From NCBI GenBank assembly GCA_026388155.1, contig JAPLKI010000016.1, positions 1 to 64,000 of the forward strand: a stretch of DNA of 64,000 bases, given 5' to 3'. The translations under genes were made by a program, and so were the position numbers. Each line of letters starts with the position of its first letter. The first letter of the stretch is position 1. Positions 23,023 through 49,869 of this stretch are shown in pieces. Origin of the DNA: Elusimicrobiota bacterium. GTDB lineage: Bacteria; Elusimicrobiota; Elusimicrobia; Elusimicrobiales; UBA9959. Under the pieces are notes generated by a model. That model was not told where the DNA came from. It did not search any database and saw only the letters and a program-made list of their open reading frames with translations.

Positions 23023-23916
23023 CTATTTGGTATTTTTCTTTATCTTCTTATCAAGCGCACCAGCAAGTTCGCCGATGGCCTTGTCGGTGGTAAGACGTAA
23101 CCGGATCTCCCGTTTATCCTGCTGCTCTTTGGGCAGTTTTTTTATGGCGGCCTTGTCGCGCGTGACAAAAATGGTTTTGCTCCAGATCTTCTCCCCGTCG
23201 ACAGCCCCGTGCAGTTCCGCTTCCAGTATCACGGGGTTGAATATCTTATTGAAAATATATGCGCCGCCGCCCCACGTAACAAGTTCCTGGGCTATCTCCT
23301 CGGCCCCTATGACGATCGCCACCCATTGTTTATGAACCAGGGAATAAGCCACTATTCCCTGTGTAACGCCTTCCACCATACCCGACCCGACAAGCAAAAC
23401 CAGCCATTTATGTTTGATGGCGCCGTAGCCGGAAAGTTTTACTTTCAACAGTGCATCCGCCCTGGAAGCGGCGCACAATGCCCTGATCTGCTGAGCGCTT
23501 AAGGGCGCAGTGCTTAAGGAAAGGCCTGCTTTCTCTAATGACAAAGAAAACTCATTCTGCGGTATGACTTCCAGATATTGCGACCCCCCCAGCCTTGTTT
23601 CCATGGCCGCCGAGAGAGCGTTCGTTACGCCGCGCATCTCTTTTTCTATCAATTCGGGCTCGCCGCCGGCGGGCTGCCCTCCGGACGGCGTGGTCTGAAT
23701 ATATTTAAGGTGTTTTATCGTCACCCCCAGCTCTACAGGCAGCAAAGCCACGCGCAGTTTTCTGCCGGGTTCGGGTATTACCCCGTGTTTGGACCAGGAA
23801 ACGCAGCCTGCCGCCGCCAGCGAAACGATAAGTAGAAAGACCAGCCTTAAGCCGCGCCGGAAGGTCGGCGCGCACACTTGCAACGCACGGAAGGCTTCTG
23901 CTGCTTTTTCTCTCAT
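23023..23916 (-). CDS. lipoprotein of unknown function
   Basis: 297 aa with a lipoprotein signal: LRLVFLLIVSLAAAGC, lipobox AAGC with Cys near residue 38. The mature region begins with KLRVALLPVELGVTIKHL, reminiscent of CsgG/GNA1162-type lipoproteins, and contains a hydrophobic segment (KWLVLLVGSGMVEGVTQGIV) and GEKIWSKTIFVT. Not confidently assigned. Starts 2 bp after the stop of the MJ1316-domain gene, so the two are coupled. Confidence 0.6.
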   Translation of the reverse strand: MREKAAEAFRALQVCAPTFRRGLRLVFLLIVSLAAAGCVSWSKHGVIPEPGRKLRVALLPVELGVTIKHLKYIQTTPSGGQPAGGEPELIEKEMRGVTNALSAAMETRLGGSQYLEVIPQNEFSLSLEKAGLSLSTAPLSAQQIRALCAASRADALLKVKLSGYGAIKHKWLVLLVGSGMVEGVTQGIVAYSLVHKQWVAIVIGAEEIAQELVTWGGGAYIFNKIFNPVILEAELHGAVDGEKIWSKTIFVTRDKAAIKKLPKEQQDKREIRLRLTTDKAIGELAGALDKKIKKNTK

Positions 23917-30425: not shown

Positions 30426-32123
30426 TCAATCCGAAATCGGGCCTACTGAAGTTTTCAGTGTGTTTTTGAACTGTTCAGGCACGTCCGGTTTTATGCCTTT
30501 CATGGTAATTATCTTTTTCGAGATCTCCTGGAAAGCCGGAGCGGCGCTTTCACCGCCGTATTGCGAGGTTTTGGGGTTATCCATGACCACGAGTATGGTG
30601 TACATCGGCTTATCCGCCGGGAAGAAGCCGCAGAACGAGGCCACATTGCTGCCGGTAAGGTATTTGCCGGTTTTCGGGTCTATTTTTTTTGAGGTGCCGG
30701 TCTTTCCGGCCACGCGGTAGCCGGCAACGGCGGCGTTCACGCCCGTGCCTTTATCCACCACGGCGAGCAATATGGCTTTTACCCTGCGCGCCGTCTCCTC
30801 GGAAACCGCGCGCCTTACGGTGGACGGTTCTTCCCGCGAAATTTCCTTTCCGTCAAAATCGGTTATCTTGTCCACCAGGCGGGCCTCAAGCAGGCGGCCC
30901 CCGTTCGCAAGCGCCGAATAGGCGCTTATAACCTGCAGCGGCGTGGCGGCGAGGCCATGCCCGTAAGAGCCCACAGCCAGGTCGATCTGGCGGTATTTCG
31001 CCTGCGCCCGCAATATGCCCGCCGATTCCCCGTAAAAGCCAAGGCCCGGCTTGGTGCCGAAGCCGAAGGCCTTGGCGTAAAGGTAATAATTCTCGATCCC
31101 CAGTTTAAGGCCTATTTTCGCGGCGCCGATATTTGAAGAGCGCTCTATCACGCCCGAAAGCGTGAGGGTGCCTTCGGGTTCGTGATCGTGAATAATAACC
31201 TGCTTATTGAATTGCCAGGCGCCTTTTTCGCAGAAAAAAGTGTCGCGCTCCGAAACCACGTTCTTTTCAAGCGCGGCGGAGAGAGTTATGCTTTTAAAAG
31301 TGGAGCCGGGTTCATAAACCCATTCCACCGGGGGCAGTTTTACCGGGTTTTCCGGGTAGGTGGCCATGGCAAGTATCTTGCCGGTGTTAGGGTCCTGCAC
31401 CAGGCCCATGCCCAGATCGGCCCGGTTCTTCAGTACCTCTTTTTTTACCGCTTCCTGGGTGAAGAACTGGATGTTTTTGTCCAGTGTCAGGTAAATATCC
31501 CGCGGGTGTTCTTCCCCCCCTTCCTTGTTTTCGTAAATTACGCGGCCCGAGGCGTCTTTTATCACGCCGCGCCGGCTGACCAGGCCGCTCAGGACCTTGT
31601 CATAAAGCAGTTCAACGCCGGTAAGGCCGGTGTTGGCGCCCACGATGCCCAGCACATTCCTGGCCAGCTCGCCGGAAGGATAGTACCGGGTCTGGGTCAT
31701 CTCAAGGGTAACACCTTTAAGTTCCAGGGCTTTTATTTTTTCGCAAGCCGTTCTGTCCAGCCCCCTTTTTACAACCACGAAGTTTTTCTCCCTGCGGTAC
31801 TTGTCGCGCAGCTGGGAGGGTTTAATATCAAGCGCCGCCGAAAGCTCTTCAAGCGCGCGGGCGGGGTTTTCCAGCTCGTTCTTGAACAGGAAGCAGTCCC
31901 AGGTTACTATGGACTGCGCGAGAAGGGAGCCTGAGGAGTCGAAAATCCTGCCCCTGGGCCCCGTTTCCGAGACGGTGCGGTTAAATTCGCGGGAAGCGGC
32001 GGCTGTCAGGTTTTCATGACTTATGGTCTGCAGGTAGAATAACCGCGCTGAAACGGGCAAAGCCGGCAGCACGGCTATATACGCGCAGAACTTGATTCTT
32101 GTTTTTAATGTTTTGGCGGTCAT
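30426..32123 (-). CDS. ftsI: FtsI/PBP3-type septal transpeptidase
   Basis: 565 aa from ATG 32123 (MTAKTLKTRIK); upstream codons lack a ribosome site. One N-terminal membrane segment (FCAYIAVLPALPVSARLFYL), then the dimerisation domain with RGRIFDSSGSLLA, and the transpeptidase domain: EPGSTFKSI with the active Ser near residue 274, IERSSNIGAAK (SxN) and YRVAGKTGTSKKID (KTG). Crosslinks septal peptidoglycan with FtsW. No PASTA domains at the C-terminus. Position after ftsL supports FtsI. Confidence 0.94.
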   Translation of the reverse strand: MTAKTLKTRIKFCAYIAVLPALPVSARLFYLQTISHENLTAAASREFNRTVSETGPRGRIFDSSGSLLAQSIVTWDCFLFKNELENPARALEELSAALDIKPSQLRDKYRREKNFVVVKRGLDRTACEKIKALELKGVTLEMTQTRYYPSGELARNVLGIVGANTGLTGVELLYDKVLSGLVSRRGVIKDASGRVIYENKEGGEEHPRDIYLTLDKNIQFFTQEAVKKEVLKNRADLGMGLVQDPNTGKILAMATYPENPVKLPPVEWVYEPGSTFKSITLSAALEKNVVSERDTFFCEKGAWQFNKQVIIHDHEPEGTLTLSGVIERSSNIGAAKIGLKLGIENYYLYAKAFGFGTKPGLGFYGESAGILRAQAKYRQIDLAVGSYGHGLAATPLQVISAYSALANGGRLLEARLVDKITDFDGKEISREEPSTVRRAVSEETARRVKAILLAVVDKGTGVNAAVAGYRVAGKTGTSKKIDPKTGKYLTGSNVASFCGFFPADKPMYTILVVMDNPKTSQYGGESAAPAFQEISKKIITMKGIKPDVPEQFKNTLKTSVGPISD

Positions 32124-32224
32124 TGAAGATTCTGGCCAGGCCGGTTTCACCGGATAGCGGGATACGAGCGAACGCCTTTCTTAGAGAAGATATTTCTGCC
32201 ATGTTCTCCTTTGCGAAGGCGGGT

Positions 32225-32307
32225 CCCGCTCTTTTGGCCGAGCGATAAAGTTTTTTTGCCTCACCTTCAGCTAACTGCCTGCTGTTTTATGAACCAAAAG
32301 GGCGGGG
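32225..32307. repeat. 83-bp element with CCCGCTCTTTTGG inverted ends
   Basis: Arms 32225-32237 and 32294-32306 pair over 13 bases with one G-T. Size and end sequence match the element inside glyS at 47801-47882, although the interiors differ. Confidence 0.5.
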
Positions 32308-32332: not shown

Positions 32333-32671
32333 TCACATGGATAAGCGGTCGCGGCGAAGCAGTTTCGAGAGCCAGCCCAAAGCCGGGGCTTTGCCTTCGG
32401 ATTGCGGATCAAGCAGCACAATAGAAGCGGGTTCGGGGTATATCATGCCGAGCTTAACGGCCTCGGCTTCCAGTTTTTCGGGCGACAGGGAGATCTGAAT
32501 TTCCTTTTTCAGGTAGGTATTCGCGTTTTCAATGTCCAGGTTGTCTTTGCGGAGCTGTTCTATGGTGTAGCCCAGCTTGACCGCCTGTATATTTTCCCAC
32601 GCGAACAGGAAAAATACGGCGCTTGCCGCGGCAAGCACCGCGAATTTCAGATTTCTTGTCCTTTTCGTCAT
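32333..32671 (-). CDS. ftsL: FtsL-like division protein
   Basis: 112 aa with a short basic N-terminus (MTKRTRNLK), one membrane segment (FAVLAAASAVFFLFAWENI) and a periplasmic leucine-zipper-like coiled coil (LRKDNLDIENANTYLKKEI), the layout of FtsL. Location between rsmH and ftsI is the standard place. FtsL bridges FtsQB to FtsWI in the divisome. Sequence conservation is low in this family, so the call rests on topology and position. Confidence 0.8.
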   Translation of the reverse strand: MTKRTRNLKFAVLAAASAVFFLFAWENIQAVKLGYTIEQLRKDNLDIENANTYLKKEIQISLSPEKLEAEAVKLGMIYPEPASIVLLDPQSEGKAPALGWLSKLLRRDRLSM

Positions 32672-45994: not shown

Positions 45995-46005
45995 TCGGAG
46001 GCTTA

Positions 46006-46869
46006 ATGAACCTGCAGGATATAATTTTAAAATTCGACCAATATTGGGCGCGCCAGGGCTGCGCCGTGATCCAGCCCTATGATATCGAAAAAGGCGCCGG
46101 CACTTTCAACCCCGCCACTTTTTTCGGTTCGCTTACCTCAAAACCGACAAAAGTCGCCTACGTGGAACCCAGCCGCCGCCCGGCCGACGGGCGTTACGGC
46201 AACAACCCTAACCGCCTCGGCAAGTTCCATCAGTATCAGGTGGTAGTAAAACCGCCCCCGAAAGATATTCAGCAGGTGTACCTCAGCTCGCTGAAGGCCA
46301 TCGGCATAGATCACAGCGAACACGACATCCGCTGGATAGAGGACGATTGGGAATCCCCCACGCTTGGCGCTTCGGGCGTGGGGTGGGAAGTGTGGCTGGA
46401 CGGCATGGAGATAACTCAGTTCACTTATTTCCAGCAGGTGGCTTCTTTCGAGCTTAGCCCCATAAGTATCGAGATAACCTACGGCCTTGAGCGCCTGGCC
46501 ATGTTCTCGCAGAAAAAGAAAAATATCTTTGACATTAAGTGGAACGACCATCTTACCTACGGCCAAATGTTCAAGGCGCAGGAGGAGCAGTTCTCGCACT
46601 ACAATTTTGAAGAGGCCGACGTGGAAAATCTCCGTTCCGACTTCGATCGCTGGGAAAAGGAAGTTTTCCGCCTGGCGAAAATGAATTACTATCTTCCGGC
46701 CTTCGAGCTTGTAATGAAGTGTTCGCATAATTTCAACCTGCTGGATGCGCGCGGCGCCATTTCGGTGTCCGAGCGGGTGGGCCTTATTAAAAGGGTGCGC
46801 GATATAGCGCGCGTTTGCGCCGCGGCCTATATGAAAGACAATGAACAGCCGGAGACCTGTCACCTGTAG
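46006..46869 (+). CDS. glyQ: GlyQ, glycyl-tRNA synthetase alpha chain
   Basis: 287 aa. Class II catalytic subunit of the alpha2beta2 enzyme. Motifs: FDQYWARQGCAVIQPYDIEK, GAGTFNPATFFGSL, VEPSRRPADGRYGNNPNRLG, EDDWESPTLGASGVGWEVWL and a C-terminal GAISVSERVGLIKRVRDIAR. ATG 46006 follows a CGGAGG ribosome site. The beta chain gene follows by 38 bp. Confidence 0.96.
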   Translation: MNLQDIILKFDQYWARQGCAVIQPYDIEKGAGTFNPATFFGSLTSKPTKVAYVEPSRRPADGRYGNNPNRLGKFHQYQVVVKPPPKDIQQVYLSSLKAIGIDHSEHDIRWIEDDWESPTLGASGVGWEVWLDGMEITQFTYFQQVASFELSPISIEITYGLERLAMFSQKKKNIFDIKWNDHLTYGQMFKAQEEQFSHYNFEEADVENLRSDFDRWEKEVFRLAKMNYYLPAFELVMKCSHNFNLLDARGAISVSERVGLIKRVRDIARVCAAAYMKDNEQPETCHL

Positions 46870-46907
46870 CCTGATCGGATTACGAATAGATTTTTCTGGA
46901 GAACGAA

Positions 46908-49085
46908 ATGACTAAAAGAGACGCCCTGCTTGAAATCCTTATTGAAAATATTCCGGCCCGGTTCGTGACTTCCGCAGAGGAACAGATGAGAAAATACGCT
47001 GCCGAGCTGATGGCCGAAGCCGGCCTGCCCTGCGACGGCATTGAGGCCTTCGGCACTTATAAGCGCCTGACGCTTTACATCACGGGAGTGCCCTCGCAGA
47101 CCGGGGAAAAAATACACAAGGCCTACGGCCCGGCCGCCCGCCTGCTTAAAGACGAAAAAGGCGATTTTACCCCGCAGGCCGCCGGTTTCGCGCGCTCGCG
47201 CGGCACCACCCCCGATAAGCTTGCCGTTGAAACCGTGCCGAACAAGGGCGAGGTGCTGGTTTTTGAGGAGAAAATTCCGGGCCGCTCCGCCGGGAAAGCG
47301 CTTTCCGGAATATTTCCGAAAATTATTTCCAAACTTCAGTTCCCGAAAAACATGGTTTGGGAAGCCGAACGCTTTCGTTTCGCCCGTCCGATACGCGGCC
47401 TGCTCGCTCTTTACGGAGACAGACCAGTGGCTTTTAAGATCGCCGGCGTGAAGTCGGGCCGCCTTAGCGTGGGCTTAAGCGCAAAGGGGTCGCGCCGTCT
47501 TAGCGTGCTCTCAGCCGAAAAATATTTCAAACTGCTTGAAAACGCCAATGTTATAGTTAAGGATGAGGTGCGCCTTAAGACGCTGCGCGCCGAGCTGGAG
47601 CGGGTTTCTCAAAGGATGAAGCTTGAGGTGGATGTGGACGAGGAACTGCTTCACGAGAATCTCTATCTGATCGAATACCCTGTGTGCGTGGTGGGCGAAT
47701 ACTCGCAGGATTTTCTGAAACTGCCCGCTGAGCTGGTGCACCTGGTGATGAAAAAACAGCTTAAATTTTTTACAGTCTCGGGCTTAAAAGGGCGGGCTTG
47801 CCCCGCCCTTTTGGAGCAATCTGCCGGTCCGGGAGATACGGGTGCGGCGGCAGGCCACGCTTCCTGGCCCAAAAGGGCGGGGCTTGAGCCGCATTTTGTC
47901 GGTATACGCGACGGTGTGTCAAAGGGGCAGCACAATGTTGAAGCCGGGTTTAAAAATGTGCTTGAGGCGCGGTTCCGGGACGCCGTGTTCTTCTTCTCGC
48001 GCGACCTGGCCGTGCCGCTGGAAAGTTTCAATGAGAAACTGAAAAGCGTTACTTTCCAGAAAAAACTCGGCTCGATGCATGACAAAACGGAGCGGGTTAA
48101 AAAACTCGCCGTATGGCTTTGCGATAATTGCGGTTTCCCTGTTAATAAGGAAGAGGCCATAAAAGCTTCGGGCTATGTTTACATCGATCTCGTGAGCGAC
48201 GTGGTCAGGGAATTTACCGAGCTGCAGGGCGCCATGGGCTATTACTACGCAAAAAACTCGGGTCTTAGCGAAACCGCTTCCCGCGCCGTGGGCGAATTTT
48301 ACTGGCCGCTTTCAGCCAAATCCCCCCTCCCGTCGTCGGCCGAGGGCGCGCTGGTGTCCATGGCCGGAAAGCTGGACACCCTTGCAGCCGACTTCGCGCT
48401 TGAAATGATCCCCACGGGCAGCGAAGACCCGCACGCCCTTAAGAGACTCGCCCATGGCATAGCCCGGATCGCGCTTGAAAAAGGCTTTAAGATCAACCTC
48501 GCCGCCGCTTTCGAACGGGCTTTGGAATATTTACCGATGCCGCCCGCTTCGTTCGACGCCGCCGCGTTAAAGGCGAAACTGCTTGATTTTACCTGGCAGA
48601 GAGCCCAAAGCATTTTTGAGGAGGAGGATTTTAAGTTCGACGAAGTTAAAGCCGTAAGGGAATTTTTCATGAGGGCTGGGGATTTGCCCGATTGCCGCGC
48701 CCGCCTGAAAGATATAAACGCCTTCCGCTCAAATTCCGACTTTGCCGCCGTAGCCATGGCTTTCAAGCGGGCAAAAAACATTCTGCGGCAGAGCAAAACC
48801 GCTCTTACCGGTTCTCCCGACGAGGGAGCGTTTGAAAAAGAAGAGGAAAAGATCCTTTACCGGGATATCGCGGGCATTTCCGCCAGACTTAAAGAGCATC
48901 TGGCTGACCGGAATTACTCGAAAAGCCTGATGGAACTGCTCTCCATCAAAGGCAGCCTGGACAGTTTTTTTGAAAAAGTTATGGTAATGGCCGAGGACCC
49001 GAAGATCCGCGATAACCGCCTGAACCTGATAAAATCCCTTGTTTCGCTTTTTGAGGATGTGGCCGATCTGTCGCAGCTGCAATGA
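46908..49085 (+). CDS. glyS: GlyS, glycyl-tRNA synthetase beta chain, with in-frame repeat insertion
   Basis: 725 aa, longer than the usual 690-700. Beta-chain marks: NMVWEAERFRFARPIRGLLA, VVGEYSQDFLKLPAELVHLV, FVGIRDGVSKGQHNVEAGFK, EARFRDAVFFFSRDL, HDKTERVKKLAVWLCDN and ELQGAMGYYYAKNSG. Between FFTVSGLKG and LEPHFVG, where other beta chains have about nine residues, lie about 30 extra residues. They are encoded by a palindromic element at 47786-47886 that keeps the frame and contains no stop. Confidence 0.93.
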   Translation: MTKRDALLEILIENIPARFVTSAEEQMRKYAAELMAEAGLPCDGIEAFGTYKRLTLYITGVPSQTGEKIHKAYGPAARLLKDEKGDFTPQAAGFARSRGTTPDKLAVETVPNKGEVLVFEEKIPGRSAGKALSGIFPKIISKLQFPKNMVWEAERFRFARPIRGLLALYGDRPVAFKIAGVKSGRLSVGLSAKGSRRLSVLSAEKYFKLLENANVIVKDEVRLKTLRAELERVSQRMKLEVDVDEELLHENLYLIEYPVCVVGEYSQDFLKLPAELVHLVMKKQLKFFTVSGLKGRACPALLEQSAGPGDTGAAAGHASWPKRAGLEPHFVGIRDGVSKGQHNVEAGFKNVLEARFRDAVFFFSRDLAVPLESFNEKLKSVTFQKKLGSMHDKTERVKKLAVWLCDNCGFPVNKEEAIKASGYVYIDLVSDVVREFTELQGAMGYYYAKNSGLSETASRAVGEFYWPLSAKSPLPSSAEGALVSMAGKLDTLAADFALEMIPTGSEDPHALKRLAHGIARIALEKGFKINLAAAFERALEYLPMPPASFDAAALKAKLLDFTWQRAQSIFEEEDFKFDEVKAVREFFMRAGDLPDCRARLKDINAFRSNSDFAAVAMAFKRAKNILRQSKTALTGSPDEGAFEKEEEKILYRDIAGISARLKEHLADRNYSKSLMELLSIKGSLDSFFEKVMVMAEDPKIRDNRLNLIKSLVSLFEDVADLSQLQ
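47786..47886. repeat. palindromic element translated within glyS
   Basis: Hairpin AAAAGGGCGGG/CCCGCCCTTTT at 47786-47796/47802-47812. Then inverted ends CCCCGCCCTTTTGG 47801-47814 and CCAAAAGGGCGGGG 47869-47882, perfect over 14 bases. AAAAGGGCGGG(G)CTTG is directly repeated at both boundaries. Ends match the intergenic element at 32225-32307. Confidence 0.7.
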
Positions 49086-49167
49086 CGGAAGATATTGTGC
49101 GGATAAAATAAAGGCCTATTTTGCGGCGCAAAGCCTTCTTCCGGCGAAAAGTAAAACAGACGGCGGC

Positions 49168-49869
49168 TCAGCGGTATGTAAGACTGAACCCGCCGAAATC
49201 CGCTTCGCTCGGGCTTTTTGTCTGATCGCCGTCGCTCATGATCCCGAAACCGTCAATATCGGGAACGTCAGCCTTGGCGTTTCCGCCCGCTAAATATTTA
49301 CGGAATTCGAAGGCCGGATCCAGCTCCATAGTGTGCCAATCCCCGGTCCCCTGCCCGCTTTCTACGATGATGGTCTTCTGGGCGTGAAAGATGCCGTGCT
49401 TGTAATCGCACACCTTCCCCGGGATGCCTGCCGCGCTCCACACGTACTTGAGTGAGTACGAGTATGCTCCCCGCCTCCAAACCAGATATACCACTGCCGC
49501 CGAATCGGTCCTGCCGGCGGCGCATTCGTCGCCGCCGTTGGGCAGCGTCACAGCCCGCCACTTCCAGCGTATCTTCGACACCTTTCCGCGCAGGTTCTTC
49601 GGGATGGAGTAGTAGAGCACGGCGGTCTTTAAAGGCCACTTGTAGGCGCTGTGGATGTAAGCGCCATCCGGGTTGTTAATTACCTTGTAGTAGTTGACGG
49701 GACCGGAATTCCGCTTGAACACCTTTAACTTGGAAACATTTATTGAAATCTCCCGCGACCCTGGCGCCGGCGCGTTCACGGAAGCTTGGGCGCATACGCA
49801 CAGGCATATGGCCGACAGCCGGAGAGGGAGCCATCGCCGCCGTATGAAATTGAATTTTTTGCGCGGCAT
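49168..49869 (-). CDS. DUF3047 secreted protein
   Basis: 233 aa with an N-terminal signal (RLSAICLCVCAQASVNA). Matches DUF3047: SAYKWPLKTAVLYYSIPKNL, IRWKWRAVTLPNGGDE, AAVVYLVWRRG, LKYVWSAAGIPG, KTIIVESGQGTGDWHTMELD and DGFGIMSDGDQTKSPSEADF. These are all-beta secreted proteins of unknown role, possibly carbohydrate-binding. Follows the flippase-like gene on the same strand. Confidence 0.8.
   Translation of the reverse strand: MPRKKFNFIRRRWLPLRLSAICLCVCAQASVNAPAPGSREISINVSKLKVFKRNSGPVNYYKVINNPDGAYIHSAYKWPLKTAVLYYSIPKNLRGKVSKIRWKWRAVTLPNGGDECAAGRTDSAAVVYLVWRRGAYSYSLKYVWSAAGIPGKVCDYKHGIFHAQKTIIVESGQGTGDWHTMELDPAFEFRKYLAGGNAKADVPDIDGFGIMSDGDQTKSPSEADFGGFSLTYR

Follow-up and report, generated by a model that had tools for sequence, protein, structure and literature searches.

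A bacterium of the phylum Elusimicrobiota carries, within the reading frame of its gene for the beta chain of glycyl-tRNA synthetase (glyS), a short palindromic DNA segment. What is this segment, and is it there in order to be translated? The gene occupies positions 46908-49085 on the forward strand of the 64,000-nt stretch analysed here (the window; positions 1-64,000 of contig JAPLKI010000016.1), encodes 725 amino acids and matches Pfam tRNA_synt_2f (E=2e-154) and DALR_1. The source genome is metagenome-assembled (3.36 Mb in 25 contigs), as are those of the congeneric species used for comparison. A first-pass annotation, made from the sequence alone, had described an element with 14-bp inverted ends and flanking direct repeats that adds about 30 codons to glyS, had likened it to the palindromic elements of Rickettsia, and had asked whether such elements are adapted to be translated. 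We confirm that the palindromic insertion is real and show that it belongs to a large family with many other copies. It is very probably a non-autonomous mobile palindrome resembling a miniature inverted-repeat transposable element (MITE), of which in-frame copies survive in genes.

An in-frame palindromic insertion in glyS

The glyS element spans 82 bp (47801-47882) and belongs to the long class of its family, in which 83 bp is the most frequent length. Its ends form a perfect 14-bp terminal inverted repeat (TIR), with CCCCGCCCTTTTGG at 47801-47814 on the forward strand and its partner at 47869-47882 on the reverse strand, which reads CCAAAAGGGCGGGG on the forward strand. Together with the flanking G and C (47800-47814 and 47869-47883) the repeat extends to 15 bp, 100% complementary and 54 nt apart. 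The tetranucleotide CTTG stands on either side, at 47797-47800 and 47883-47886, as a 4-bp target-site duplication. These 4 bp are the true boundary repeat; the direct repeat described earlier, of 16 nt (47781-47796 versus 47866-47881, 88% identical), marks no boundary, its left copy being host Lys-Gly-Arg codons that differ in the congeners (AAAGGCCGG, AAAGGC).

The boundaries of the insertion were obtained from a codon-level comparison with 28 further GlyS proteins from the same bacterial family, 26 of them from other genera and two from congeners. The comparison places an in-frame insertion of 87 nt at 47796-47882 on the forward strand, that is 29 codons (GlyS residues 297-325), between KGR and LEPHFVGIRDG. 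All 26 GlyS of other genera lack it, reading TVxDxKG-x-LQPYFVGIRDG or a near variant with zero extra residues. Both congeners carry an insert at the identical site (29 and 26 residues), and its inverted ends are still legible in their DNA; the insertion therefore predates the split of the three species, and the glyS frame has stayed open ever since.

Could the segment be an ordinary loop of GlyS, specific to this lineage, whose codons form an inverted repeat by accident? The presence of the insert in all three congeners examined is compatible with such a loop. However, over 100 other sites have matching ends and target duplications, and the closest second copy in the source genome, as found by BLAST, is 93% identical. 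Nor do the relatives offer the picture expected of a plain loop, namely the same residues without inverted repeats: the congeners keep the repeats intact, and in the other genera these residues are missing. This explanation is refuted, and we give it practically no weight.

The interrupted gene is directly preceded by glyQ (46006-46869; Pfam tRNA-synt_2e), and no dimeric-type glycyl-tRNA synthetase scored above the family cut-off in the source genome or its congeners, at a genome completeness of about 97%. GlyQS is thus apparently the sole glycyl-tRNA synthetase of the species, and since no dimeric enzyme was found above the cut-off, glyS must function with its insert. An AlphaFold2 model built with 33 sequences is confident overall (mean predicted local distance difference test score, pLDDT, 88). 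Its longest low-confidence stretch is residues 296-322 (pLDDT below 50, 26-30 in the core), modelled as a turn joining strands 288-291 and 326-335; the insert is accordingly predicted to be a disordered loop between two strands. Its predicted translation includes ACPALLEQSAGPGDTGAAAGHASWPKR, and the intact, conserved frame suggests that it is still translated.

Alternatively, the interrupted genes could be pseudogenes in decay, or the insert could be removed from the RNA or the protein. Strong hairpins could in principle be processed, though we found no direct support for either possibility. Against this stand the intact frames across many genes, the 83-86% conservation of GlyS in the congeners and the lack of a dimeric enzyme above the cut-off; moreover, the length of the element preserves the frame, so removal is unnecessary. 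We regard this alternative as very improbable.

Two further observations concern this gene. At 47786-47812, host codons and the left end of the element together make AAAAGGGCGGG-CTTGC-CCCGCCCTTTT, an 11-bp hairpin like that of an intrinsic terminator, within the glyS message; the region folds better than shuffled sequences (z=-2.5). One congener has, in addition to its full glyS, a short GlyS-like open reading frame (ORF; G002:C34:52828-53727), a truncated and uncharacterised paralogue; similar ORFs of about 310-430 amino acids, matching portions of the N-terminal half of GlyS, occur in G005, G029, G031, G032, G033 and G036.

A family of palindromes and its target

We searched the genomes of the phylum for the ends of the element. 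Exact CCCGCYCTTTTGG ends occur 137 times in the source genome, against 0 for a reversed control, far more than chance would give. Two congeners have 47 and 12 (control 0-1), and most other genomes are at background. Paired elements are confined to three genera within a single family, where just 5 genomes have them out of 341 for the phylum. The glyS element has 91 BLAST matches in its own genome, and 108 paired copies were gathered from the three congeneric species; these copy numbers come from searches and selected stretches and are minimum values, and the copies in G001 were covered in part.

The 14-bp ends follow the pattern CCCCGCYCTTTTGG...CCAAAAGRGCGGGG. Lengths of the 108 paired copies peak at 83 and 41 bp, and the interiors fall into several sub-families that are often strongly divergent. 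Exact 4-bp direct repeats flank 50 of the 108 copies, whereas shuffled pairing gives 7.3 on average and at most 16 in 2000 shuffles. The reconstructed target is symmetric and palindromic, GRC-NN-GYC, the duplicated 4 bp being CNNG. The outer C and G hardly vary, which makes a 4-bp duplication formally equivalent to one of 2 bp (NN) by elements that end in G...C.

The insertions can also be recognised by the sites that lack them. Alignments to element-free orthologues break at the element borders, and nucleotide comparison revealed exact empty sites of 87 or 45 nt in six genes (an ftsX-like permease gene, hypF, an ABC-2 permease gene, mcsA, a DUF4833 protein gene and a GH94 enzyme gene), which carry the target as a single copy. 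A seventh gene, purH, is empty in a congener. In the source species it holds two adjoining elements of 37 and 82 bp (L054 1390-1515), which jointly add 39 codons relative to the congener, although each alone would, by its length, shift the frame. In hypF, different elements of 83 and 50 bp sit at one position in two species (L044, L260) and the third species is empty, which suggests an insertion hot spot with independent in-frame hits.

Several other repeats touch this family. The window itself holds a second copy, 84 bp long and flanked by CGGG repeats (32224-32307), which is non-coding; its neighbours, members of a cell-division gene cluster, are an ftsI-like gene (30426-32150) and, in the ftsL position, a small ORF (32333-32671). 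A 30-nt stretch at 23788-23817 that lacks the ends but matches the interior of the glyS copy at 87% identity is probably a decayed relic. At seven loci (L035, L046, L025, L027, L049, L097, L060) different elements occupy one CAAG/CTTG site of a genomic repeat, CTCCTACGCAAG-TATTGTAT, which represents either a shared target or a composite repeat. A separate multi-hairpin family (L017-L021), consisting of AAAAGGGCGGGGCAACCCAGCCCTTTT followed by two further hairpins, hosts insertions of the palindromic element (L033, L053). Another genus (G015; L169 7119-7202, L290, L292) has a related family of 83-bp elements, whose ends are CCCCGCACTTTGGG; one of its copies lies near the G015 glyS, and its interior resembles the G002 and G000 sub-families. 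Rfam gave 0 matches at E<=1 over 46000-49200, and no long element was found in a collection of viral contigs, which speaks against spread by phages; our literature search found no paper on such elements in Elusimicrobiota.

Frame neutrality of the copies in genes

A copy was called genic when an ORF ran through it with coding flanks, as judged by a codon-usage score trained on the long ORFs of the window. By this score 46 copies are genic; after discounting two doubtful cases, about 44 of the 108 remain, and in one species the share is 17 of 27. Pfam matches identify as hosts purH, hypF, prmC, a macB-type ABC transporter gene, the ftsX-like and ABC-2 permease genes, mcsA, mcsB, and genes for a MiaB-like enzyme, a SUI1 protein and an O-antigen ligase; in a congener the hosts include mfd, lpd and the genes for the GH94 enzyme and the DUF4833 protein (the names mcsA, mcsB, mfd, lpd, prmC and macB are our readings of domain make-up).

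Once the 4-bp duplication is added, the modal lengths keep the frame, as 83+4 gives 87 nt and 41+4 gives 45 nt, each a multiple of three. Among the genic copies, 39 of 44 have a length plus 4 that three divides evenly, compared with 29 of 64 others (p=5e-6); the element ends are free of stop codons in all six frames. Is this an adaptation, in which length, stop-poor sequence and ends have evolved to encode a useful or harmless peptide? Some features would fit. If the two modal lengths are independent, both would be multiples of three after adding 4 bp about 1 time in 9 by chance. Long copies have more open frames than their shuffled interiors (3.94 versus 3.36 when genic), and this slight excess extends even to non-genic ones (3.33 versus 2.76); the codons of the TIRs are conserved in shared insertions.

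Other features speak against a selected peptide. The three reading phases are used about equally (17/15/14 among the 46 genic copies), and a pair of sister copies (G002 C18:11924 and C32:17609) has opposite strands translated. Where copies differ, the differences are spread over the codon positions as 0.28/0.22/0.25 (p=0.065), with no excess at the third. Short elements have no more open frames than shuffled interiors, and the genic pattern is accounted for by survivorship. A specific translated peptide was considered for a group of sister copies that looks peptide-like in one phase; the same DNA is, however, also read from the opposite strand, and its codon positions differ equally. The idea that the elements are adapted for translation as a particular peptide thus found no support, and selection for translation in general seems to us quite improbable. 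We conclude that the element is frame-neutral and find no selected peptide, while selection on its length is possible; a frame-neutral length and stop-free ends explain the observed genic pattern.

The glyS copy may also have had descendants. A copy on contig 25 (position 117716) matches the glyS element of the source genome at 78 of 82 positions, whereas the glyS copies of the congeners match the latter at 67 and 72 of 82; the contig 25 copy is as distant from the congeners' copies as the source-genome glyS copy is. On this sequence evidence, the simplest reading is that, once the species had separated, the element resident in glyS gave rise to the contig 25 copy while itself staying in place; gene conversion, or a third source since lost, is also possible. 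In insertions shared between species, 25-28 of the 28 end positions are identical, compared with 50-83% identity in the interiors. At 9 of 10 four-fold sites within the TIRs three species show no variation, whereas in the flanks this holds for 47% (p=0.007, from two genes), a difference that is suggestive only: ten sites are few, and one shared copy has decayed (L258). It is possible, though we hold it doubtful, that essential genes serve as a long-term refuge and source, in which translated copies keep their ends by selection or repair at the DNA or RNA level, over and above any constraint on the protein, and reseed the genome.

Mechanism, comparison with known elements and meaning

The element inserts at its short palindromic target, duplicating 4 bp and typically adding 45 or 87 nt, and we propose that a transposase acting in trans moves it. 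Wrong-frame or stop-containing insertions would be purged, and in-frame insertions in loops may persist as disordered extensions. The glyS copy, inserted before the three species split, may have served as the source of at least one later copy, that on contig 25.

Several points weigh against this proposal. In about half of the copies an exact 4-bp repeat is missing. The call of genic and non-genic copies is heuristic, with Pfam and empty sites backing part of it only. The glyS insertion itself requires one additional G (82+4+1=87 nt). Finally, a search among insertion sequence (IS) families that covered DDE_Tnp_1, IS1380-type and Y1 transposases found none whose ends match: DDE_Tnp_1 is absent from the source genome and G002, an IS1380-type transposase is absent from all three congeneric species, and no autonomous copy emerged from the unpaired ends, of which no intact ones flank a transposase in the loci examined.

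Genes of the Y1_Tnp family do occur in all four genomes searched, with four in the source genome. They raise the possibility that the elements resemble repetitive extragenic palindromic (REP) sequences moved by a REP-associated tyrosine transposase (RAYT, of the Y1 or HUH type), the 4-bp repeats then reflecting recognition of a cleavage site rather than a staggered cut. Like REPs, the elements are small palindromes in many copies, with short hairpins typical of that class, and it is Y1_Tnp and not DDE_Tnp_1 that the source genome contains. In contrast to the fixed GTAG/CGTC tag of REPs, however, they are flanked by variable CNNG tetranucleotides matched left and right, at duplicated sites of a symmetric palindromic target, and many copies are genic. 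No element ends adjoin the Y1 genes within the flanks examined; one such gene (L274) has a CCCCGCACTTTT hairpin at a distance of 0.9 kb, which seems incidental. We consider movement by Y1 transposases unlikely, and prefer the MITE-like reading.

Bacterial MITEs such as Correia/NEMIS, RUP, ERIC and YPAL are shorter than 200 bp, have terminal inverted repeats and target-site duplications and lack a transposase gene; some lie in frame in ORFs, and YPAL targets sites of dyad symmetry (PMC2229807). The Elusimicrobiota element shares the terminal inverted repeats (14 bp), the small size (41 or 83 bp), the lack of transposase-coding capacity and the target-site duplication, evident both in the flanking repeats and in the single-copy target of empty sites. 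Most of those MITEs, in contrast, are mainly intergenic and many have TA ends. The element thus fits the definition of a MITE in everything except a known source IS.

The likeness to the palindromic elements of Rickettsia (RPEs) and Wolbachia (WPEs) drawn in the first-pass annotation was well founded. Those are short, many-copy palindromes lying in frame in conserved housekeeping genes, with orthologous insertions retained in related species and inserts in solvent-exposed protein regions (PMC10969869, PMC2229807, PMC3767692). The Elusimicrobiota palindrome is likewise mobile and in frame within conserved genes. It differs in its shorter length, RPEs having about 100-150 bp, in its 4-bp duplications, and in the lack of a conserved encoded peptide, its copies being read in all phases and on both strands without codon-level conservation. 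It therefore works like RPEs and WPEs but forms a separate, MITE-like and apparently unrelated family, set apart by length and peptide features.

In-frame palindromes that code for protein have hitherto been mainly an oddity of Rickettsia and Wolbachia, with reduced genomes and drift as the usual background. The elements described here provide a second, apparently unrelated case, in another phylum and in an environmental lineage with a 3.4-Mb genome. Their target duplications, empty sites and length arithmetic make it possible to test whether such translated palindromes are selected or are survivors, and they represent a route by which proteins may gain segments of 15 or 29 residues in one step.
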